Source: a virus
Virus record (IMG/VR): IMGVR_UViG_3300034111_000735
Span: 1-32,239 of that record
DNA length: 32,239 bases
Direction: 5' to 3' (one strand)
The translations under genes were made by a program, and so were the position numbers. Positions 6,843-24,214 of the stretch are shown piece after piece. The notes under the pieces were generated by a model that was given only the letters and a program-made list of their open reading frames with translations, was not told the DNA's origin and did not search any database. Within the stretch, counting starts at the first letter, position 1. Every line of letters starts with the position of its first letter.

Positions 6843-9692
6843 TTAGTGTCCTTCTGCTATGATGTAAAATTGTACGCCATCAGTTGTGATGACATCGTAT
6901 GAATGATGAGTTGTTTGATTGTGTGAATCACTACCATCAATTTGTGCGCTTGTCGCTGTGTTGATTGTAACGCTATGACCGCTTTGAGGTTTTTTGATTA
7001 CCCAAGTTTTACCGCTTAACGACGTAGGGTCTGGCAAAGTAATTGTCAAATTACCTGCGCTTGTGTCTGCAATAATCAACCAATCGTCTTTTGTAGCGTT
7101 GTAGTTTGTGCTTACGTTACGAACTGCACCACCACTCAAGAAATTAGGGTACATCTCGTAGTTGCCCACGTACATTGTGTTTGGTTTCTCGACTGCAAAG
7201 TCATCACAAACGACGGCGATTGAGTTGTCAGCGCCCTCTAGAAATGAAGTATTCACACTAGCGAACGCACTTGAGTTGTCGTTGTTTGACGATTGTACGA
7301 TACCATCACCTACGAAGACACCACTACCTCCGTTTGACGTACCTACTGAGACTCCCTTGATGCCGGGCTTGAATGGTATACTTCCACCGGGGTAGATGTC
7401 ACCATACGTCTCACCTTGTTGCCCTTGCCCTGTACCTGCACCTATTGTCTTTTGTGCAATTGTAGCAGGTTGCACAAATTGCGCCAATAAGAACTCACAC
7501 AAGTATACACTATCTCCGTTAGGGTCGTAGTCTTCTATTTTGTTCAAACGCCAGTACTGACCTTCAAAGAAAAACGCGTCAGCAAAAGACAAGTTCAAGT
7601 AGTCTTTCGTAGTGATGCGAAAATACGCTCTCAAAATCTTCGAGTTCTTTGACGTGATTTCAGTCAAGAAACGATAGTAGTAATTATTTACGAGATTCGA
7701 GTTCGTGTATTTGTAGCCTGCACCTAGACCTATCTCACGAGGCATACCGAAATTGATGTCGAAAGTAGGGTTTGCGATGTCGTTAAGATGCGTAGTGATA
7801 GGTATTGAGAAACGATTCGAGCGATTTACGCCTACTCCTGCGTATTGTGCATAGAGCATCCAATTGACACCACTCACTAGACCGCTATAATACATCACGC
7901 GTAAGTCACCATCTTGAGGGTTTGGTACATACGACAAGACGAAGTTCTTTTGATTGTTGTAAGAGCGTATTTGAGTAGGTGAGAAAATGACCTCAATCTT
8001 CTTCTCTTCTTTGACGAATTGATTCTCGACTTGATATGTGCGCGAGCCGTATGTAGTTTGATATGACTCTTGATACAATACGTTCGCGTCGTCTTTGCCC
8101 TCTTTGTATTGAAACTTGTAAGGGTTTGCTTCTAGTTCGCCCATAGGTACAATCTCGACGCTTTGAGAGTAGTCAAGTTTTTTCGTCCAATCTACTTGAG
8201 AGCCATTGTAGAACTCGTCACGAGGTACGATTCTCAACTCTTTAGGATTGTCTTGATTTGGCTCTATGTACAAATTGAACATCTTCACAAACGAAAGCAA
8301 GAGTTCGCTTTGCTTGACTTCGCTATTCATAAAGACTGCAAAATCTACCGTCTCGCCATAGCCATAAGTGAACGCTGTCAAGTTATTCTCGATGTAAGAA
8401 TTTGTCGAGATGTCAAGTTGAAATTCACTATTCGTGAGATTGTATGCGTTTGCGTTGTCGTAGACTTGAACGAGTTTGAACTCAACTACGTCACCATTTA
8501 AGATTGTGCTCGGTGCAAAGTACAAGTCGATGTTGAAAGCAGGTGACCCAAAGTCTATTGTGATAGTCGATGTCGTGCGCTTTACGCCGTTAACGTACAA
8601 GCCAAAGACAAGCCAGATGTCTTCTTGATAAACGGGCATATATCCCGTAGAGTTGTAGTTGATACCTAGCGAAACGTCAAATACATAGTTTCCCCCAACA
8701 GGTGCGGTGAATTGACCTGTCGTAGGGTTGTAGTTGCCTCCGTTGTCGTAGTTGCCACTAGTAGAGTCGTTTTGAAATATAAGCGTAGACGACAAGTCTA
8801 GTGATTGAGGTGTCGTGATTCTCGATGCTTTGAATCTTCTTGATTCTAGAGCGTTCGCGTCAATAGTCAACGACGATGGAGGTGGTATCACTAACCTTTT
8901 GAATCTATCGCTATTGAAGAAAGAGTCGTTTGTGTAAGTGTACGACGCGTTCGCAAACATCTTGTCTACGATAGTCTTTGCGTAGAGACAAGGCGTGAAC
9001 TCGTTAGTCTCCCATAGAGAGATATTGCGAGGGTGACCTTTGTCAATCATTGCGTACATATAGCCCTCACCATATGAGAACGCTTGAGTCGACCCATTCT
9101 TGTAGATTTGAGTTGCCCACGAATCGATGACGTTGCCACTAGAGAGAGTATGATTGTACTCGCTAAAGTCTAGCGCGTTTAGTTTGCGCTCACTTAAAGT
9201 GGTGAATAAGTCTGCAGTTTGCCCGTGAAGAGTTACCTCGTACACAATATGCGTAGAGTCGTCAACACGAATAGACAAGAGACGCAAGAACCCTCTCAAC
9301 TGCTCAATGCCGTCACTATACAAGATGACATCTGCTTTGAGATTAGGGTTGTAATCGTACGCAAATTGTACGCTTGATTGTATCGTTTGCTCTACTTCAA
9401 ACAAGTGAGAGAAAATAATGTTGTTTGTCTTCGAGCCGGGGATTTCAAACGTCTTCGTCCACTCACTAGAACGCGCTTGAGGCTCTCTAATATCTGCAAT
9501 TGAGCGCGTGATGAGCGTACTTATGTTGTTATATGTGTCGAGTTTGCGTTGTACCCACGAACCACCTAGAGCGATTTCTTTTGAGATACGACAAGACTCA
9601 CCTTCTTCAACACCACTCAAGATGCGACTCTCGTAATTTGCTTCTATTGTCTCAAGCAATGAAGCAGGAATCGACACATAAATTTCTATCAT
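6843..9692 (-). CDS. Large tail tip/baseplate protein (949 aa)
   Basis: The longest gene. The first 700 residues look like a beta-rich baseplate hub with many aromatic residues and NxS/T-rich loops. A Gly-rich linker follows (AGTGQGQQGETYGD, GGSIPFKPG, near 745-780). The C-terminal 120 residues resemble the small beta module seen at the ends of phage fibres (DTSAGNLTITLPDPTSLSG, then GVQFYIIAEGH). It overlaps the upstream 376-aa gene by ATGA and is followed by the tape measure. A tail tip/Tal-like role is inferred from size and neighbours. No peptidase motif was recognised. Confidence 0.65.
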   Translation of the reverse strand: MIEIYVSIPASLLETIEANYESRILSGVEEGESCRISKEIALGGSWVQRKLDTYNNISTLITRSIADIREPQARSSEWTKTFEIPGSKTNNIIFSHLFEVEQTIQSSVQFAYDYNPNLKADVILYSDGIEQLRGFLRLLSIRVDDSTHIVYEVTLHGQTADLFTTLSERKLNALDFSEYNHTLSSGNVIDSWATQIYKNGSTQAFSYGEGYMYAMIDKGHPRNISLWETNEFTPCLYAKTIVDKMFANASYTYTNDSFFNSDRFKRLVIPPPSSLTIDANALESRRFKASRITTPQSLDLSSTLIFQNDSTSGNYDNGGNYNPTTGQFTAPVGGNYVFDVSLGINYNSTGYMPVYQEDIWLVFGLYVNGVKRTTSTITIDFGSPAFNIDLYFAPSTILNGDVVEFKLVQVYDNANAYNLTNSEFQLDISTNSYIENNLTAFTYGYGETVDFAVFMNSEVKQSELLLSFVKMFNLYIEPNQDNPKELRIVPRDEFYNGSQVDWTKKLDYSQSVEIVPMGELEANPYKFQYKEGKDDANVLYQESYQTTYGSRTYQVENQFVKEEKKIEVIFSPTQIRSYNNQKNFVLSYVPNPQDGDLRVMYYSGLVSGVNWMLYAQYAGVGVNRSNRFSIPITTHLNDIANPTFDINFGMPREIGLGAGYKYTNSNLVNNYYYRFLTEITSKNSKILRAYFRITTKDYLNLSFADAFFFEGQYWRLNKIEDYDPNGDSVYLCEFLLAQFVQPATIAQKTIGAGTGQGQQGETYGDIYPGGSIPFKPGIKGVSVGTSNGGSGVFVGDGIVQSSNNDNSSAFASVNTSFLEGADNSIAVVCDDFAVEKPNTMYVGNYEMYPNFLSGGAVRNVSTNYNATKDDWLIIADTSAGNLTITLPDPTSLSGKTWVIKKPQSGHSVTINTATSAQIDGSDSHNQTTHHSYDVITTDGVQFYIIAEGH

Positions 9693-10819
9693 TGTCTTTG
9701 TCTCTTACTATCGAACGAATATACAACGTCAATTTCTAGATTGAAGACTTTGTCTTGTACGTGCTTCTTGACTTCGTAGTTTGATGTCTCGATGTTGACT
9801 GCTACGAGAGTAGTGCCATCGTACATATACACGACAGGCGAATCAATCAAGTCTTTCAACCATTCGCTTTGTGCTTCTGTAATCCAGTTCGAGAACAATT
9901 TAACCCTATGAGTTGAAATTGTGTCGTAATTTTTTGACTTAAAAGATGAAGTCTCGTAGGCGTAAGTTGCACCTAGCGTGTAAGGGTTTGCGAGATACGT
10001 CTTGCGTTGAGTGTCGTATGTGTCTCGTCTTACTTTGTTGAAGCGAAATGAGTCAAAGCCACCTAGAGAGTTTAAGAAAAATAAGTCAGTCGTCTCGTAC
10101 TTTGAACACTCATCTACTAACGTCACGCGATATGTCTCACTCAATGTAGTCGCGCCATTCTTTAGTACGATGTCATAGTATGTCGCACCGCTAGGAATTG
10201 TCAATTGAGAGCCACTAGGTAGACGAACTATTGTTGAAGTAGGTAGAGTAAGCGTTTGTGTACTTGCGTTGCTATACGTGATGAGAGCGCTTGTAGCGGT
10301 GTTTCTAATAGCGTACAAGAAGTCTTTTTGTGTGCGTTGAATAATCTTCGAGCGAATAGGTGTCAAGAATTTGCCGTCACCATCCATAGTGTATTGACCA
10401 TTGTAGTTAACTAAGTCAATCGCGTTGAGTGATGCGTTCCATACATTGCCAGTTGCACTCGTCAAGTTTGTGTACTCTACTACGCTACCTGTTGCACTTG
10501 CACTATACTCGTAGCCAAACTCTACTTTGTAAGACATTGCGCTATTTGCGCAACCACTAGCGAGAGTGTCGTTGATGTTGAAGTCGTAAGTGACGTAGTT
10601 CTCTAGAATGCGAGAGATGTTGAAGACGCCTTTGTTTGTCGAGCCATAGTAGATAGGTGCTTTAAGTTTTGCAAGAGTCGTTGTGTTTTGCTTGACTTCA
10701 CAAATAAACTTAAAATTGTCTTTCGTGTAGATTGCACCGCTTGACTCTGTGATTACGAAGTTCGTATCATTGTAAGCAGGTGCGTTCGCGTTTGGTTGTT
10801 GTGTGATAGAGAGTGCCAC
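9689..10819 (-). CDS. Distal tail-type structural protein (376 aa)
   Basis: Beta-rich with Thr/Asn/Ser-rich turns and a C-terminal domain ending VFNLEIDVVYSFDS. The DFLYAIRN and GGFDSFRFNKVRRDTYDTQRKTY segments recur in structural tail proteins of Bacteroidetes phages as I know them. The stop overlaps the start of the 949-aa tail tip gene (ATGA), so the two are probably made in fixed ratio and assemble together. A Dit-like or tail hub-adjacent role is likely but not proven by a motif. Confidence 0.6.
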   Translation of the reverse strand: MALSITQQPNANAPAYNDTNFVITESSGAIYTKDNFKFICEVKQNTTTLAKLKAPIYYGSTNKGVFNISRILENYVTYDFNINDTLASGCANSAMSYKVEFGYEYSASATGSVVEYTNLTSATGNVWNASLNAIDLVNYNGQYTMDGDGKFLTPIRSKIIQRTQKDFLYAIRNTATSALITYSNASTQTLTLPTSTIVRLPSGSQLTIPSGATYYDIVLKNGATTLSETYRVTLVDECSKYETTDLFFLNSLGGFDSFRFNKVRRDTYDTQRKTYLANPYTLGATYAYETSSFKSKNYDTISTHRVKLFSNWITEAQSEWLKDLIDSPVVYMYDGTTLVAVNIETSNYEVKKHVQDKVFNLEIDVVYSFDSKRQRQ

Positions 10820-10859
10820 GTATTAAAATAGCAACGCAACACTCTCGTCTCAAAATGAA

Positions 10860-10888
10860 AGAGAGACCTTGCGAGTCTCTCTCTTTTT
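10860..10888. terminator. Intrinsic terminator, probably bidirectional
   Basis: AGAGAGAC (10860-10867), 7-nt loop, GTCTCTCT (10875-10882). The plus strand has a run of T after the stem. The minus strand reads TTTCATTTT after it. It follows directly on the stop of the 185-aa gene, so on the minus strand it would end that transcript. Confidence 0.75.
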
Positions 10889-11445
10889 TATTTCTTCAAC
10901 ATCTTTGCAATGTATCGATAGTGAAACTCTTGAATGTTGTAACCCCCACAAGGAACACAACAAGTATAGAAGAAGCGACCATCTGCAAGTTTTGTGTTCA
11001 CTTCAAAACCTTTACCGCCAATTTGCGTCGTCACATATTCTGCCATATCGTCTGCAGTCAAGAACTTCTCAAGTGCGCTTTCTAGTTTTGCGATGCTAAT
11101 AGCGCGAACTGATTCGATGTGACTTGCAAAGGTTTTGTCGTAGCGATTTACTAAACCAAATACAAAGTCTTGCAATCTTTGACGACGACCGTATGTCATA
11201 GAGTAGGCGTACTTGTTGTACCAATCGTGACCTTTTGCATTTTCTACGTTTGCCAATTCTTCGTTGCATCCGTTCATAATTAAGATTGTGCGATAGACTG
11301 CGTAGTCGTTAATCTCGTTAGGGAACTTAGTTCTGAAGTCGTTGTACACGTTCAAAATTTGAGCGATTCTTTCTACTTCTTTTTGAACAAGGATTTCGAT
11401 TTGCTCGTTGTAAGATTCTCTGATTGTTTCGATTGCGTTTTTCAT
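10888..11445 (-). CDS. Accessory protein with its own promoter and terminator (185 aa)
   Basis: The ATG at 11445 is chosen because the longer frame to 11496 would include the promoter -7 box at 11467-11474. The product (MKNAIETIRESYNEQ...) is mostly helical in the N-terminal two-thirds. A C-terminal segment has a CCVPCGGYN cluster that could bind metal or form disulfides. It is flanked by a promoter and a terminator inside the tail gene cluster, so it looks like an independently expressed accessory gene, not a tail component. The family is not recognised. Confidence 0.7.
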   Translation of the reverse strand: MKNAIETIRESYNEQIEILVQKEVERIAQILNVYNDFRTKFPNEINDYAVYRTILIMNGCNEELANVENAKGHDWYNKYAYSMTYGRRQRLQDFVFGLVNRYDKTFASHIESVRAISIAKLESALEKFLTADDMAEYVTTQIGGKGFEVNTKLADGRFFYTCCVPCGGYNIQEFHYRYIAKMLKK

Positions 11446-11466
11446 AGTTCGTTTGATTTGATATGT

Positions 11467-11497
11467 CAAAACTACAACTATTCTTGATATACGCAAT
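11467..11497 (-). promoter_or_regulatory. Bacteroidetes-type promoter for the 185-aa accessory gene
   Basis: -7 box TAGTTTTG (complement of 11467-11474), 19-nt spacer, then ATTG (complement of 11494-11497) at -33. This matches the TTTG/TTG-N19-TAnnTTTG consensus of Bacteroidetes primary sigma factor promoters. The box ends 21 nt before the ATG. Upstream lies an A-tract and a TTTCAAAGTG stretch shared with the promoter at 23518. The rest of the 153-bp gap (11498-11650) holds only a weak TTATATG/CATATAA inverted repeat. Confidence 0.8.
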
Positions 11498-11650
11498 ACA
11501 CTTTGAAACTTTTTTTTCTAAATCTTTTGTTTTCTTACAATTCTATGACAATTCACTCGTCACTCTTATTCGTAGATATGTGACTTATATGTATCTAAAA
11601 GCATATAAATTGTGCGATTTATGACACGTTATATGTTCAAGCGTATACTC

Positions 11651-12414
11651 TTAAAGCATCTCATTGAGAACAGCGATGACGTAAGGTTGAAAACCCTTGT
11701 TTGCGCTTTGCTCTAGTCGTTTGTTGCGCTCTTGCGTTTGTGCTTTGTGGTATGCGATTGCGTTGAAGAACTCTATCAAAGGCATATCGAGAAAGAACTC
11801 CCATTTTGTTCTATCACGATTCGCCATCTTGTCGACCAGTTCTAGCCACGCGAAAGGACTTACCTCTACTTTGTCAAGTTGCTCATCTCCTGCTTCAAAT
11901 AATCGAGGGTAGCGGTCAACAACTGCGGATAGAGTGCCAAGAAAAAAGACGCGTATGAATAAGCAAACGAGCAACTCAAAGTCTTGAAGTCTTCGCATCG
12001 CTCTTCAAAGTTTTGTGCGACTTGACCTTTTGAGATTTTCACGCGATAGCCAAAGATGTCTACTTCGTAAGATAGCATCGCTAGAATCTTGTGTAGGTTC
12101 TCAATGATGTCGTCTGCTTTGATTTGTTGTAACGCGATGAAGTGTTGAGCGTGCATCTCTTGAGCGTTCGTAATTAGACGATAGCGTTTCTTCAAGTGCT
12201 TGAAAGCGAACATTGGTTTCTCTTGTGGTAACTCGTTCAAGAAATTCAACTTCTCTACTTCTTTCAATATCTTCTCAAGAGACATCTCTTCGACTTCGTC
12301 GATGTCTAAGCGATTGACGATAGCGATTTGATGTACGCGTCGTTCTACTCCTTCAAAGTGATTGATTGAAGAGAGTTCTTGTAGTTGTCCGATTGTTATG
12401 TTTTTCCAATTCAT
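11651..12414 (-). CDS. Tail assembly chaperone, -1 frameshift product (GT-type, about 254 aa)
   Basis: Translation starts at 12414, reads 158 codons, slips -1 at the heptamer at 11941-11947 and continues 96 codons to the stop at 11651. The downstream part reads LGTLSAVVDRY... and ends YVIAVLNEML, mostly helical. The -1 frame is open well past the slip site. In lambda-like and many other siphoviruses the chaperone pair G/GT is made exactly this way and recruits tail tube subunits to the tape measure. A free-standing start at 11998 for the second frame would overlap 133 nt of the first gene, which argues for a fusion. Confidence 0.75.
11866..12414 (-). CDS. Tail assembly chaperone, unshifted product (G-type, 182 aa)
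   Basis: ATG at 12414, two bases after the terminase stop. A helical, Leu/Glu-rich protein starting MNWKNITIGQLQELSS, with KKRYRLITNAQEMHAQHF in the middle. The start pattern (N-W-K-N-I-T-I-x-Q-L-x-E-L) is the kind seen in small tail-assembly proteins of this phage group. The first 158 residues are shared with the frameshift product. It ends YLKQEMSNLTK 24 codons past the slip site. Confidence 0.7.
   Translation of the reverse strand: MNWKNITIGQLQELSSINHFEGVERRVHQIAIVNRLDIDEVEEMSLEKILKEVEKLNFLNELPQEKPMFAFKHLKKRYRLITNAQEMHAQHFIALQQIKADDIIENLHKILAMLSYEVDIFGYRVKISKGQVAQNFEERCEDFKTLSCSFAYSYASFFLALYPQLLTATLDYLKQEMSNLTK
11941..11947 (-). promoter_or_regulatory. -1 ribosomal frameshift site U UUU UUC
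   Basis: In the chaperone frame the codons read TCT TTT TTC TTG, so T TTT TTC is a canonical X XXY YYZ slippery heptamer. Slipping one base back moves the ribosome into exactly the frame that stays open to 11651. The zero frame continues 24 more codons to a stop, as in other G/GT pairs. Confidence 0.8.
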
Positions 12415-13602
12415 TTATGCAAAGTAAAATAATCCCGGTCTATTCTTTGACTTGCAATCTAACGCGAGAGCAAGAGAGCAAACGCAATCGTCGTGCAAGC
12501 CAGTAGGTGCGCTATATCGTACACCTGTGCGAGTGTACTCATACTCGAAAGACTCCATCTCGTAGCCGATAGGGTCTTCGGGGAAGCGTATTTCTGTGCG
12601 TTGTACTGCAAGAACTAGACCCTCGATGAGTTGTTGCTTCGATTGCGATGTAAACTTGAAACCTTGAGCGCGAGAACACGCTCTTTGTATTTGCTCGACG
12701 ACTGGGTCTCCTACACCTGTTGAGTCTATAAAAGCGGGTGTGTTTTGTACGAGTTGAATGATGCGTTGTTGAGTTTGCCCCCAATCGCTTTGAAAGCGTT
12801 CGCAATATGATACGCAATTATTCGCATCGATACCAATGATGACCGTATAATCGGTGTACTTTGCAAGGTCAATACCATACGCCACGACTTGAGAGTTCGT
12901 TGTAGGTTGATAGCAAGAGCGAATCGCATCAATGCCGAATGGGTTTGACTTATCGTCTGCAGGTTCTGCAAGATATAACTCATCGAACACGTGCTTCGGT
13001 AAGTCTCTCTTTGCTTGCTCTACTTCGTCGAGTTGAAGTATGCCTTCATTGACGGCGTCGTATGCTGTAATCTTGAAGTACTCGTAGTCTTGCTCGCCTT
13101 GCTTTGCTCGTTCACCTAGTTTATAGAACCAATTCTTTTTGCCTTTGACGTTACCTATCAACTTGCATTTTCCTTGCGTTGCCGTAAGAGTAGAACGAAG
13201 AGCGAACCACGACTCTTCTCTCGCTCGTGATGCTTCGTCAAAGACACAAGCGTACACGTCGTCACCATACAAGTTGTCGGGCTTCTCTGCGCTCTTGAAC
13301 TCGATTCTCGCACCTGTGGGAAGCGTCAATAACAACTTTGATTCGTTTGTCGTGAAGAAGTCTTTTTGTGAGACTTGCGTCTTCATACGACGATAAGCGA
13401 TTTCTGCTTGTTGGTACACAGGTGCAACCCACCACACACTTTGACCATCGCGCAACTTTAGTGCTTGCTCGAATAGCCAGATGATGTGTGATGCGGTCTT
13501 ACCTGTTTTAGTACTCGCCGCGGTGATTGTGTATCTCGCTTTTGAGTCGAGAATGTTCTTTTGATAAGAAGTCAATCTAGGGCGAATGTACTCTATTTGC
13601 AT
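12415..13602 (-). CDS. terL: Terminase large subunit (395 aa)
   Basis: The start is placed at ATG 13602 (MQIEYIRPRLTSYQKNI), giving a 10-nt overlap with the glycosyltransferase stop. The longer frame to 13731 would overlap it by 139 nt. The Walker A-type loop is ASTKTGKT (residues 29-36), Walker B is VYACVFDE (D122, E123), and NVKG follows near 151. The nuclease domain shows YGIDLAKYTD, FIDSTGVGD and GLHDDC, carrying the acidic metal ligands of the RNase H-like fold. It is the ATP-driven DNA packaging motor and cutter. A probable small subunit lies about 1.8 kb upstream, separated by a glycosyltransferase and four small genes. Confidence 0.92.
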   Translation of the reverse strand: MQIEYIRPRLTSYQKNILDSKARYTITAASTKTGKTASHIIWLFEQALKLRDGQSVWWVAPVYQQAEIAYRRMKTQVSQKDFFTTNESKLLLTLPTGARIEFKSAEKPDNLYGDDVYACVFDEASRAREESWFALRSTLTATQGKCKLIGNVKGKKNWFYKLGERAKQGEQDYEYFKITAYDAVNEGILQLDEVEQAKRDLPKHVFDELYLAEPADDKSNPFGIDAIRSCYQPTTNSQVVAYGIDLAKYTDYTVIIGIDANNCVSYCERFQSDWGQTQQRIIQLVQNTPAFIDSTGVGDPVVEQIQRACSRAQGFKFTSQSKQQLIEGLVLAVQRTEIRFPEDPIGYEMESFEYEYTRTGVRYSAPTGLHDDCVCSLALALDCKSKNRPGLFYFA

Positions 13603-14588
13603 ACGCTTTCGTAGAATTTGATTCGTTCGATGTTCCACAATTTGATATCGTGAAACTTGCGAGAGTAGTACGCGTTTGACGAACCTAGTTGAGAAGTGTT
13701 TGTCATCGCTTGCTTGATTGCTTCGTACCACTCGTCATTCTTTGCGAAAATGACACCACCATTGTCGATGTGATTCAAGTAAGGCTCACAAGCACTCACG
13801 ACGATAGGCAACTCGTATGCGCTCGCTTCGAGAATCTTCAACTCGCTCTTACACGAATTAAACTTTGTCGTTTGTAGAGGTGCGATTGCTAGGTCGAAGT
13901 GTTTGTAGACTTCACCATATGCGTTTGCGCTAGTGCCACGAACGACGTGAAACCAATCGCCTTTGAACATCGAGCAGATTGAATCCCATATATCGCTAGG
14001 TGTGTATCCACAAAGATAGAAGTCGATGAGACCTTCTTCACCTAGACGAGTGATTGCGTCTACTACGAGTTTCAAATCTTCGTGATGTGTGATGCCACCT
14101 ACCCACCCTACTTTGAATTTCTCGTTCGCTAGTCTTGAGTGTCTCCATTGCTCGTGTTCGTAGTCTAGACAATTAGGTAGAACGATTGAGTTCTTGTTGT
14201 ATTGCTTGACTTGTTCGAGTAGTTGAGGCGTTGTGCAAGTGACACCATCTGCGTAGTGAAGAGCGTCTTTGATTGCGTTCTTGATTCCGTTGCGATACGC
14301 CCAATATGCTGGGTTGAATTTAGGCAACACCCAATAGTCATCAACGTCTACAATGTAAGGAGTCTTTGCTTGAGCAATCTTCTTCAAGATATCGTAGTGA
14401 TGTTTTCCTAGCCAACGATTGAAGACTACGAGGTCGTAGTTCTTGAAGTCAACTAGATTCATCATTGTATCGCTATCTTGAGCGATGTCTATCGTCGCGT
14501 ATTCGTCGAGTTGTAGACGCATCAATGGCGTGTATATTCTGTGATACACAACGCCATTCATTCCGTCTGCTAGTGCAAGTATTCTCAT
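13593..14588 (-). CDS. GT-B glycosyltransferase, GT4-like (331 aa)
   Basis: The N-terminal Rossmann half begins MRILALADGMNGVVYHR. The second half has KVGWVGGITHHEDL (about 159-172) and the nucleotide-sugar binding segment KSELKILEASAYELPI (247-262) with the E-x7-E-like pattern of GT4 enzymes. It would transfer a sugar from a nucleotide donor. The acceptor cannot be read from sequence: it could be host surface glycan, a virion protein or DNA. It overlaps the 80-aa gene and the large terminase by a few bases, so it is part of the packaging transcript. Its insertion between small and large terminase genes is unusual. Confidence 0.8.
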   Translation of the reverse strand: MRILALADGMNGVVYHRIYTPLMRLQLDEYATIDIAQDSDTMMNLVDFKNYDLVVFNRWLGKHHYDILKKIAQAKTPYIVDVDDYWVLPKFNPAYWAYRNGIKNAIKDALHYADGVTCTTPQLLEQVKQYNKNSIVLPNCLDYEHEQWRHSRLANEKFKVGWVGGITHHEDLKLVVDAITRLGEEGLIDFYLCGYTPSDIWDSICSMFKGDWFHVVRGTSANAYGEVYKHFDLAIAPLQTTKFNSCKSELKILEASAYELPIVVSACEPYLNHIDNGGVIFAKNDEWYEAIKQAMTNTSQLGSSNAYYSRKFHDIKLWNIERIKFYESVCK

Positions 14589-18273: not shown

Positions 18274-18783
18274 TCATATCTCTTCTTCGTACGCAATACA
18301 TCGCTCTCTTCTTTCAAGATGTGAATTGATGACGATAGATTCTTCGTCGCGATAAGAATCCAATAGTTCAAGAGTTTGTTGATAGGTTTTGGCGAAGTTT
18401 CTGTCATAGTCTATTAAGTCTTGCGTTTGTCTCACGCTATGAATGATTGTCGAATGGTCGCGATTTATGATACGACCTATCGAGTCAAGTGACATACCTA
18501 GAGTCTTTCTACAAACATAGTTAAAAGTGTGCCTAGCATACAAGATGTGTTGTTTGCGAATACGAGAGTATATGTCATCGGGAGTGATTTGATACACTTG
18601 ACAAACGACGCGCATAGCATCTGTCCATTTTGCTTTCGTGTTTCTCACGTCAATCTTTGGTCTCAAAATCTCTCTCTTTAAATCTTGAATCAATCTCTCG
18701 TAGTGATTCTTTTGTTCGTTGATTACAAGTCGTAGACGACGATTCTCCTGCTTTGCGTTGTGTAAGTCTTGATAGTGATTCAT
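18274..18783 (-). CDS. DnaA domain IV-like DNA-binding protein (169 aa)
   Basis: Residues 95-120 carry LGMSLDSIGRIINRDHSTIIHSVRQ, the signature helix-turn-helix of DnaA domain IV (the GRDHST...H motif, here NRDHSTIIH). Upstream residues 1-45 form a charged coiled coil. There is no AAA+ ATPase domain, so this is a DNA-binding module alone. It could mark the phage origin, compete with host DnaA at oriC, or act as a transcription factor. It is the last gene of the replication operon, coupled to the glycosyltransferase by ATGA. Confidence 0.85.
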   Translation of the reverse strand: MNHYQDLHNAKQENRRLRLVINEQKNHYERLIQDLKREILRPKIDVRNTKAKWTDAMRVVCQVYQITPDDIYSRIRKQHILYARHTFNYVCRKTLGMSLDSIGRIINRDHSTIIHSVRQTQDLIDYDRNFAKTYQQTLELLDSYRDEESIVINSHLERRERCIAYEEEI

Positions 18784-19643
18784 ATTTTTTTGTATTTAGG
18801 GTCTAAAATCAACGGAGTTGTATACAACCACTTTATTGAATGATGTATTCTTTTATGTGTACTATTCATCATTGATACACTTACTCCGCTCGGGTGCATC
18901 ATTGTTGTAGTAAATGCCTTACTATATGTACCATATTTTAAATACATATCTGTAATTCCGCTTTTATTGCTTTGCGTTGCTGTTTGAGTAATTGATACAA
19001 AAGGTATAGTCAAAAACAACTCACCTCGACAACCTTTAGTTGTATAAGTATTTACGTCTTCATTCATTGCACCTACGAATTGAAATTTTCTCTTTGTGCT
19101 ACAAATAAAACTATTCATACATTTTCTTTTGTTGAATCTATATGCGCCTTTGCCATTGTTTATACCTCCTATAAAATCTCCTCCCTGTGCAAATGCAATT
19201 GATAAAGCAGGTATATTTTTATAGTATTTCAATAGCATAGAGAAAATGATATCTAATTTTTTTATCGGTTTGATTGCACCGCAATTCTCTGTTGATTGAG
19301 TGTCAATCCTAAAATCAAAAGCAGTGTAATCGTCATCAAGTTGTATAAAGTATTCTATACCTATTTGACTAGCAATATCAAAACAAGCATTTCGCGCGTG
19401 AGTTATTGTTCTTCTTTCATCAAAGTTGTTGCCCTCATCTATTGAATCAGCCATCGCCTTTTTATCAAATACTTTTACCATTGAATCACCGTATGTGCTT
19501 AAATAAGTATCGAGTGTTTTGTCTTCGTTGTCTACGATAAGATACGTCGCACCTGTATACCCACATTTTTTTAATGTCTGCAAAGTTTTTAGGTTGTTAG
19601 GTCTACCGTGAGTCAAAATAAATACCGCAAAATTATTGTCCAT
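18780..19643 (-). CDS. TET-associated-type (TAGT) glycosyltransferase (287 aa)
   Basis: GT-A-like enzyme: FILTHGRP at 8-15, YLIVDNEDKT at 34-43, a DDD at 103-105 (QLDDDYTAF) for metal and nucleotide-sugar binding, FAQGGDF near 151-157, MNED at 193-196, and RIHHSIKW at 265-272. This motif order matches the TAGT/GREB1-related family known in phages to glycosylate hydroxylated bases in DNA. The start is set at ATG 19643, an 11-nt overlap with the previous gene; the longer frame would run far into it. The coding sequence is clearly more AT-rich than the flanking genes, a sign of transfer. No TET/JBP oxygenase or dCMP hydroxymethylase is visible in the window. Confidence 0.75.
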   Translation of the reverse strand: MDNNFAVFILTHGRPNNLKTLQTLKKCGYTGATYLIVDNEDKTLDTYLSTYGDSMVKVFDKKAMADSIDEGNNFDERRTITHARNACFDIASQIGIEYFIQLDDDYTAFDFRIDTQSTENCGAIKPIKKLDIIFSMLLKYYKNIPALSIAFAQGGDFIGGINNGKGAYRFNKRKCMNSFICSTKRKFQFVGAMNEDVNTYTTKGCRGELFLTIPFVSITQTATQSNKSGITDMYLKYGTYSKAFTTTMMHPSGVSVSMMNSTHKRIHHSIKWLYTTPLILDPKYKKI

Positions 19644-20031
19644 ATTCTTCGAGGTATTGAGTTTTGATATCGTCACATAGTTTGATGTAGCCGTATTGAA
19701 TTGCTTTCTCAAAATCTATGATTACAAGTGCAGAGCGTTCCATCAAATGTTGCATTTCTTTACTAGCGTGCGAGTAGTAGTCAGCAATTTTCTCGTAGTT
19801 AAAAACAAGATGTCTCATCGTTGCATCAATCAAAAAAGACTTCTCTTCTTCGCTTAGTGATGATGTTTGAATCTCTTTGATGAGACGTTGACTTTTAGAC
19901 TTGTCACAGAGTTCAAGAATGTGAGGCTTCCTGTTCTTAGGTTCGTAGATAGGCGCTTCAATCTTGCTCGTGTACTTTTGTTCTTCTTGATTAGGTGCGT
20001 AGTCTGCACCAAACAAATTTATTTGTTTCAT
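19633..20031 (-). CDS. Conserved Bacteroidetes phage protein (132 aa)
   Basis: The sequence shows KPHILELCDKSKSQRLIKEI, EEKSFLIDATMRHLVFNYEKIADYYSH and MERSALVIIDFEKAIQ. I associate this arrangement with a hypothetical protein common near DNA replication and modification genes in phages of Bacteroidetes, without an assigned activity. It is soluble and helical. It is coupled to the helicase by ATGA and overlaps the glycosyltransferase start, so a link to DNA metabolism or modification is plausible. Confidence 0.7.
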   Translation of the reverse strand: MKQINLFGADYAPNQEEQKYTSKIEAPIYEPKNRKPHILELCDKSKSQRLIKEIQTSSLSEEEKSFLIDATMRHLVFNYEKIADYYSHASKEMQHLMERSALVIIDFEKAIQYGYIKLCDDIKTQYLEEYGQ

Positions 20032-23203: not shown

Positions 23204-23229
23204 TGGGGGCTTTTACACCCCCATTTTTT
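23204..23229. terminator. Stem-loop between the 85-aa and 70-aa genes
   Basis: TGGGGG (23204-23209), 8-nt loop, CCCCCA (23218-23223), then TTTTTT on the plus strand. On the minus strand the stem is followed by only ACTATTT. It may work as a weak terminator or attenuator of the minus-strand transcript and a better one for antisense transcription. Confidence 0.55.
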
Positions 23230-23236
23230 GTGTCTA

Positions 23237-23494
23237 TTAAAATTCGTATTCAGTTAAAAAATCAACAAATTGACCGGGACAGATTTGACAAAACTTGTCG
23301 TCGCTTACACACACATAATTTTTTTGTGCCAATTGAGACAAATATCCTTTTACTTGTTTCTCGTTGAAATCTGTTACAAACTCCATAACTTCTTTGAAGT
23401 AAGTGAAGTCACCACCAGTGTACTTGTCAGATGCTTTTACAATAGATTGCAAAACTGAGATTTCGTTGTCGTTTAGATTTGTGTAGTTGTTCAT
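23237..23494 (-). CDS. Hypothetical winged-helix-like protein (85 aa)
   Basis: The ATG at 23494 is chosen because the longer frame to 23551 spans the promoter at 23518. The product (MNNYTNLNDNEISVLQSIVKA) continues with FNEKQVKGYLSQLAQKNYVCVSD, the helix-strand pattern of a small winged helix, and has a CQIC pair near the end. A DNA-binding regulator is possible, by pattern only. Confidence 0.6.
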   Translation of the reverse strand: MNNYTNLNDNEISVLQSIVKASDKYTGGDFTYFKEVMEFVTDFNEKQVKGYLSQLAQKNYVCVSDDKFCQICPGQFVDFLTEYEF

Positions 23495-23517
23495 ATCGTT
23501 TGTGTTATTTGATGTAG

Positions 23518-23548
23518 CAAAGATACTACTAGCAAACATATGCGCAAG
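23518..23548 (-). promoter_or_regulatory. Bacteroidetes-type promoter upstream of the 85-aa gene
   Basis: CTTG (complement of 23545-23548), 19 nt, TATCTTTG (complement of 23518-23525). The box ends 23 nt before the ATG. The upstream A-run, TTTCAAAGTG and TTGCGCATAT stretches match those at the promoter at 11467. Confidence 0.8.
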
Positions 23549-23581
23549 CACTTTGAAATCTTTTTTTCTATTTATTTTGTT

Positions 23582-24214
23582 TTATTGCAATTCTATGACA
23601 TTTCTCAACATATGACCTGCGTAGTATAACTTCTCATCTATCAAGTCTTTTACGTCGTCAAGCGTGATATTCACTACGTGCTTCTTGTGTGAGTCGGGCA
23701 TTCTAGGGTCATACGAAACAAAGAACGCATTCTCACAAGCACTAGCAATCATACCCATTTGCATTTGCCAGTAGTACTCGCTATGTTGAGACTTCAAGTC
23801 TTCGTTTGTTTTGATTGAGAAATTGCGTAGATGAATACCGCTATTGAATGGACATTTAATCTCAACGATAAAGTCATCACCTAGCGCGTCGGGAGAATAA
23901 CCTCCAAAGTCACCGTATTCGATAAAGACGAAAGTCTCACCTCCGTAGTAAGTAGCGAGAGAGTTGAAAGGGTCAAACGCTTCATACGCTTGCTTCTCGT
24001 GTTCTTTGCCCCAATCTAACGCACGACCATAGATTTCGTTTCGTTGGTTTGTGAGAATCTCTGCACCTTTCTCGTAGATGAAAGTCTTTGCTGTCTCGCT
24101 TAAGTACTCCGATTTGTTTCTCGGAGTACCCATCAATTTATGAATTTGTGAAGCCGTGAAACGCGTTCGTCTCAACTCAAGCCATTGCTCTTCACTTTGT
24201 GTAGTCGTAACCAT
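23582..24214 (-). CDS. YqaJ/lambda exonuclease-family recombinase (210 aa)
   Basis: Start ATG 24214 (MVTTTQSEEQWLELRRTR). WLELRRTRFTASQIHKLMG at 11-29 is the family N-terminal motif. WGKEHE (68-73), SPDAL (107-111) and EIKCP (118-122) form the metal-dependent nuclease core. It resects double-stranded ends 5' to 3' to give single strands for the annealing protein encoded just upstream. About 10 nt separate it from the ERF gene. Together they form a Red-like recombination pair. Confidence 0.9.
   Translation of the reverse strand: MVTTTQSEEQWLELRRTRFTASQIHKLMGTPRNKSEYLSETAKTFIYEKGAEILTNQRNEIYGRALDWGKEHEKQAYEAFDPFNSLATYYGGETFVFIEYGDFGGYSPDALGDDFIVEIKCPFNSGIHLRNFSIKTNEDLKSQHSEYYWQMQMGMIASACENAFFVSYDPRMPDSHKKHVVNITLDDVKDLIDEKLYYAGHMLRNVIELQ

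Follow-up and report, generated by a model that had tools for sequence, protein, structure and literature searches.

Organization of the locus

The window, meaning the whole stretch of DNA that was analysed, is the 32,239-base virus record IMGVR_UViG_3300034111_000735, and the genes described here are read from its minus strand. Between the terL and chaperone-like genes and the tail genes lies a gene for a 185-aa protein, which is accompanied by a leader and a 3′ hairpin.

9689–10819, minus strand: downstream wall gene, 376 aa, tail region (relatives)
10820–10856, minus strand: conserved promoter-like leader of gene 9689–10819, slot wall (relatives)
10857–11558, minus strand: approximate segment present in the window and absent from the empty slot of locus L018 (alignment with L018)
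10860–10882, minus strand: 3′ hairpin, also behind other cargo in L029, L030 and L037 (folding, relatives)
10888–11445, minus strand: cargo gene, 185 aa, with C-terminal GGYNIQEFHYR (ORF, alignment, selection test)
11447–11554, minus strand: cassette leader, common to other cargo and to a second copy at 23.5 kb (alignment)
11467–11497, minus strand: predicted Bacteroidota-type promoter, ATTG-N19-TAGTTTTG (motif match, conservation)
11559–11650, minus strand: intergenic block kept with or without the cassette in relatives (alignment)
11651–12414, minus strand: upstream wall, a pair of overlapping ORFs (182 and 115 aa) in a tail-chaperone-like layout (ORFs, relatives)

The two wall ORFs overlap at 11866–11998 in a −1 relation, with a run of six T inside the overlap, and look like a tail-chaperone frameshift pair. 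An overlapping pair in the same relative frame occurs in L004 and L005, which belong to another phage group described below. In several relatives, the block at 11559–11650 contains near-palindromic TAACGTGTCATA/TATGACACGTTA-like halves.

A Shine-Dalgarno-like site was found at one of the 36 gene starts tested in the window (background 5.5%), and full-score TTTG-N19-TAnnTTTG promoters precede the genes at 25.0, 22.0 and 18.2 kb. Given the small number of such sites and the fit of these promoters to the revised Bacteroidota consensus, TAHHTTTG as excerpted from PMC6847099, the host of this phage group is probably a member of Bacteroidota. The window TerL has only distant counterparts in cultured phages, 33% at best among the listed matches, and no T4-like phage is among the listed best TerL matches of the 32-kb record. 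The ERF and YqaJ recombination genes were confirmed by Pfam; no integrase match was found among the annotated window ORFs, which were a scanned subset.

The earlier note had given the 185-aa gene its own promoter and terminator, and the analysis alters both parts of this claim. The predicted promoter ends 21 nt before the start of the gene, and relatives preserve its frame; a match of this kind has a chance of P about 0.008 in 110 nt of first-order random sequence. TAGTTTTG has a G at a position where the excerpted consensus allows none (PMC6847099). Since the Bacteroidota motif by itself is not enriched genome-wide (14 minus-strand versus 15 plus-strand matches at a score of 9 or more), the promoter call rests on conservation. 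A sigma-70 promoter was also sought, and the scan shows none upstream on the gene's strand. The stop codon is followed by a stable hairpin of 11 bp (−14.4 kcal/mol; 4 of 200 shuffles fold equally well). Because the long T run of this hairpin is on the plus strand and the tail in the gene's own direction is TTCATTTT, the hairpin is predicted to be a weak intrinsic terminator.

The gene has an ordinary base composition (GC 0.394 versus 0.408) and is under purifying selection, with dN/dS of 0.05–0.18 in nine pairs. The CCVPC cluster, previously singled out as the main visible feature of the protein, does not deserve that place: it is present in five of ten aligned close relatives, the other five having CCIGA, SCIGA, TCIGA, TCIGA and ELIPA. 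A metal site at CCVPC was rejected, as the cysteines are not conserved.

A slot with fixed walls and changing cargo

A scan with the neighbour gene 9689–10819 yielded 29 relatives, 26 of which have both slot walls on the contig. Two of these 26 hold the 185-aa gene (L009 and L024), and the other 24 slots contain an empty gap or other small ORFs. L025 also holds the gene, its far wall not being on the contig. In L018, whose neighbour proteins are 93–99% identical to those of the window, the walls are separated by a 250-nt gap without the 185-aa gene, and in L019–L021 the gap is 42 nt. Alternative cargo of this slot comprises a 70-aa ORF (L029, L031), a pair of 83 and 82 aa (L030, L045) and a 121-aa ORF (L037); the alternative cargo of the group to which the window belongs showed no recognised domain in profile searches. 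Alleles are replaced too, since in L009 the neighbours are 92–97% identical to those of the window (HNH 77%) and the 185-aa gene only 54%. A search for the gene in 28 whole records, covering all but loci L022 and L044 and the record of L002/L024, recovered the four known carriers and left 24 without any copy, four of which are about 30 kb and the rest shorter fragments. The absence from related genomes that the accessory-gene reading of the earlier note implied is thus observed, and presence in all relatives, which we looked at as the opposite outcome, did not occur.

The leader TTTG-N20-TATTTT in front of gene 9689–10819 is conserved in every slot sequence printed, which tempers the earlier statement that the 185-aa gene is unlike every other gene in the structural run. 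Because gene 9689–10819 has this promoter-like leader of its own, the cassette appears to sit between two transcription units, with no operon interrupted. Of the earlier placement of the gene, the position between chaperone-like and tail genes stands, and the setting inside a tail operon is not supported.

The cassette leader (about 105 nt) of the window is 72–78% identical to those of L003, L009, L029, L030 and L037, in front of four kinds of tail-slot cargo. Its 27-nt core occurs twice in the window, at 11.5 and 23.5 kb, and in none of 100 shuffles. The second place has a slot of similar make-up.

23205–23222, minus strand: GGGGG/CCCCC hairpin after the second cargo (sequence)
23237–23494, minus strand: second-slot cargo, 85 aa, 95% identical to cargo of the other group (protein comparison)
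23498–23604, minus strand: second leader copy (76% identical, E 8e-17), overlapping the end of the YqaJ-like gene and extending just beyond it (alignment)

With the second leader copy as query, matches were found in 10 of the 16 records searched; several of the six without a match are partial, and one of them, G011, nonetheless carries the tail copy. In all nine records examined, the window included, the second site has YqaJ on one side and a 70-aa gene on the other, ERF preceding YqaJ, and its leader stands in front of six kinds of ORF.

Cargo shared with an unrelated phage group

Scans with the 185-aa gene (9 and 16 loci) also picked up a phage group whose TerL is different and whose copy of the gene comes after terL. 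Four cargo proteins are common to both groups, with identities of 82–86% (185 aa), 95% (85 aa), 83% (121 aa) and 79% (57 aa); other matched genes between the groups are about 22–28% identical, and an HNH gene is 46% identical. The DNA similarity of the other group to the window is confined to the ORF (11449–10885). The shared DNA of such cargo begins at most 15 nt from the start codon, except for the 57-aa protein, where it begins just within the ORF, and ends near the stop codon or at the hairpin. The leaders differ by group, and the 185-aa gene of the other group stands behind that group's own promoter.

The dS of the 185-aa gene is about the same between groups (window–L004, 1.02) as within the group of the window (window–L003, 1.08). 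In a tree of 11 gene copies, no branch of which is strongly supported, neither phage group forms one clade (3 changes; 0% of 200 bootstrap trees with 1). All eight gene-bearing loci in the cargo comparison lie on contigs first found via the gene.

A scan with the TerL of the other group gave 339 confirmed loci, and the best 80, being the best matches to one TerL, were kept. In these, the gap between terL and the DnaA_C gene is a variable slot, complete with both walls in 70 of the 80 loci and incomplete in 10; 17 slots are empty and 53 are filled. A C5 methylase, Mom or TAGT gene is found in 27 of the 53 filled slots, and the 185-aa gene in three of the 70 complete ones, one of which is the query's own contig. 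In the five examples printed, methylase, HNH, GNAT and 209-aa cargo of this group have a leader different from that of the 185-aa gene. These kinds of cargo therefore share with the 185-aa gene the gap, not the promoter. Across loci L179–L256, the slot from terL to DnaA_C is hypervariable, its contents including C5 methylases, Mom, TAGT, GNAT, HNH and numerous small ORFs.

No recurrent partner gene was found across 69 non-redundant locus groups. A toxin–antitoxin pair was considered and rejected, as no neighbour cluster is present in more than four of these groups with the exception of one 13-group cluster, which we took for ORFs antisense to the family gene.

The GGYNIQ motif and the predicted fold

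Stepwise searches from the 185-aa gene via L017 to cultured phages revealed that its C-terminal GGYNIQxxHxR is common to proteins of many phages. The motif lies 14–23 residues from the end in all selected ORFs except L010 and L048. A viral scan confirmed 209 of 237 matches to the GGYNIQ pattern, 80 of the 209 being kept, and a genome scan confirmed 17 of 19, of which 13 are from Clostridia by their record titles. Cultured phages with the motif include those of Shewanella, Pseudomonas, Rhizobium, Rhodobacter and Serratia, among others; the proteins are annotated as hypothetical, and the gene contexts vary (dam and rIIA, primase, ssDNA-binding protein, endolysin). The motif is diverged in Tenacibaculum phage pT24, where it reads GGHSVQ..H.R. 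Salmonella phage Melville, an initial candidate for the family, lacks the motif and was dropped as a chance match.

In an hhalign comparison, the close relatives of the gene matched the cultured-phage proteins with a probability of 94.4 and an E-value of 9e-8, with only 20 columns aligned; tblastn with P0001 itself found no phage. The shared motif is thus real, with significance over about 20 residues only. The H and R that follow the GGYNIQ loop are invariant in the alignments, the 43-row one of which includes GGYNIQ-pattern loci; the invariance of the GGYNIQ letters themselves is partly by construction, as loci L059–L155 were found with patterns requiring them. The cultured-phage rows, obtained by tblastn, give a less biased motif alignment.

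Predicted models (pLDDT 79.5 and 87.5) show a helical part followed by a long helix and four strands; the motif sits in the loop that leads into the last strand. Searches of family libraries returned nothing above curated cut-offs for the 185-aa protein (best E about 0.004, Pfam and PHROGs) and nothing useful in NCBIfam and PADLOC. No solved structure was matched by sequence search, and a fold search against the PDB gave best E-values of 0.21 and 0.47. The best VIA-align score was Z 6.1, on helices; the window protein reached Z 5.2 at best, and the C-terminal part matched PURA (Z 5.1, rmsd 3.1, 45 residues), all Z values obtained being within the range that the tool calls common. In BFVD, three proteins matched with E no higher than 0.001, and no function is assigned to any of them. 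A literature search by motif found no paper on GGYNIQ, which does not prove that the motif is undescribed.

In L010 (38–4918), the motif is found in a 1626-aa protein, where it is internal rather than terminal; DUF5661 near the start is the only domain found in this protein, and plasmids gave no match for the L010 stretch. In the Clostridial genome loci L140–L153, the motif stands behind long, probably coiled N-terminal parts.

A putative model of the cargo slot

The comparisons above led us to propose that the 185-aa gene occupies a fixed, promoter-anchored cargo slot for exchangeable genes that act on the host. As an overall explanation we consider this probable, and its components differ in strength. 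That the slot is fixed and its cargo exchanged is, judging from the alignments, very likely. The slot would consist of a promoter leader, an exchangeable ORF and a hairpin, set between two transcription units. Exchange would take place where short matches near the start codon and at the hairpins allow recombination, perhaps aided by the ERF-type annealing protein of the phage. Because its leader is one that is also used beside the recombination genes, the 185-aa gene may be transcribed early and independently of the tail genes. The least certain steps concern the protein itself, which might act alone on a host target, either blunting restriction or another defence or helping takeover; the GGYNIQ loop with the following H and R would then be the working site, and the variable helices would give specificity. 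A counter-defence or takeover role of this kind is quite conceivable, at a little under an even chance. The case for the host takeover or defence function named in the earlier note comes from the company that the gene keeps; the role may be one in early host interaction or anti-restriction.

In a bolder form of this proposal, the two groups, whose packaging and tail genes are unrelated, exchange entire ORFs from start codon to stop via fixed promoter/hairpin slots and thereby draw on a common pool of small early genes, and the GGYNIQ proteins in that pool are a new, widespread kind of counter-defence protein. The exchange half of that statement is well supported by the sequence comparisons; the statement as a whole we put forward tentatively.

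Several other explanations were weighed against the cargo-slot model. Position between chaperone-like and tail genes would suit a tail or tail-assembly protein, a reading that is extremely improbable for a gene absent from phages with 93–99% identical neighbours, located after terL in the other group and replaced by other cargo in relatives. Its own predicted promoter and hairpin would also be expected of a superinfection-exclusion gene of the classical prophage moron kind, as had been suggested; this role is weakened, and now seems very unlikely, by the lack of an integrase match among the annotated window ORFs (a scanned subset) and of a membrane stretch evident by eye in the 185-aa protein. 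Alternatively, the gene could be a passenger, a mobile or nearly neutral ORF kept by slot turnover with no role for the phage. Patchy presence, empty slots (17 of 70 in the other group, best 80 of 339) and the many unrelated cargo ORFs are all what a passenger would produce, but the strong purifying selection and the conservation of the motif over many phages make this improbable.

An enzymatic alternative shares the slot and the early expression with our model and differs in the target: the 185-aa protein would be a small BECR-kind endoribonuclease like T4 RegB, trimming host or phage mRNA early. In the predicted models, the C-terminal elements are a long helix and then four strands, which is the order given for the BECR core in the excerpts of PMC5512222. 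Besides the invariant H and R after the loop, an Arg of the long helix (R97) is nearly invariant in the 43 rows, and one of six PBECR families has an Arg in place of the usual His according to the same excerpts (PMC5512222). However, in these 43 rows neither the usual BECR His of the helix nor the Ser/Thr of strand 4 is conserved, and no BECR-kind RNase is among the listed structural matches. We therefore regard an RNase of this kind as unlikely.

Relation to known systems

Among known systems, morons and PeSL cassettes come closest, though neither is a full fit; a limited literature search for comparable slots found nothing on point. Phage morons were reportedly described by Hendrix and by Juhala in 2000. 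Measured against the definitions excerpted from PMC6814406 and PMC2147016, the 185-aa gene resembles a moron in being a single accessory gene with its own predicted promoter and hairpin, placed between genes that are adjacent in relatives and horizontally acquired, as seen from 82–86% identity across groups in which other genes are about 22–28% identical. It differs in its ordinary base composition (0.394 versus 0.408) and in that no sign of lysogeny was seen; furthermore, the leader and hairpin stay while the ORF changes, and the leader is found at two fixed sites. The moron layout inferred in the earlier note, namely a gene with its own promoter and hairpin that is absent from the slot of near-identical relatives (L018) and present in an unrelated group, is thus supported by the comparisons, both in how the gene is laid out and in how it has evolved. 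We extend this reading to a promoter-anchored cargo slot, of which the phage has two, that draws on a pool shared with an unrelated group.

PeSL mobile regulatory cassettes of T4-like phages are said to have been reported by Arbiol in 2010 and Comeau in 2014. As excerpted from PMC4503421, they combine a promoter with a stem-loop, lie between genes and mark the places where genes are shuffled. The slots of the window, with a constant leader, hairpins and changing cargo, are similar. In contrast to the many copies and high density of PeSL, there are at most two copies per genome here; in addition, the window phage is not T4-like, its promoters are of the Bacteroidota type, and a group with another leader has cargo in common with it.

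Anti-restriction loci carry DNA methylases, Mom and DNA glycosyltransferases. The equivalent slot of the other group holds such genes in 27 of its 53 filled instances (best 80 of 339), whereas the 185-aa protein has no such domain and its gene has a leader different from those of the five printed examples.

The slot resembles a docking site at which genes, probably ones acting on the host cell, are exchanged. Expression slots that stay in place while their cargo changes offer a direct route to phage genes that are important in the host, and every ORF behind these leaders is a candidate host-interaction gene, foremost those for the 57-, 85-, 121- and 185-aa proteins common to the two groups. 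As GGYNIQ genes annotated as hypothetical are present in cultured phages, their role is open to bench work now.

Elsewhere in the window, the gene at 18780–19712 has a strong match to the PHROG beta-glucosyl-HMC-alpha-glucosyltransferase (E 5e-64), and the DNA of this phage may, on the basis of this match, be hypermodified. A glycosyltransferase-like gene (PF13692) at 13593–14588 adjoins and overlaps terL, and is kept in most relatives that show the region.
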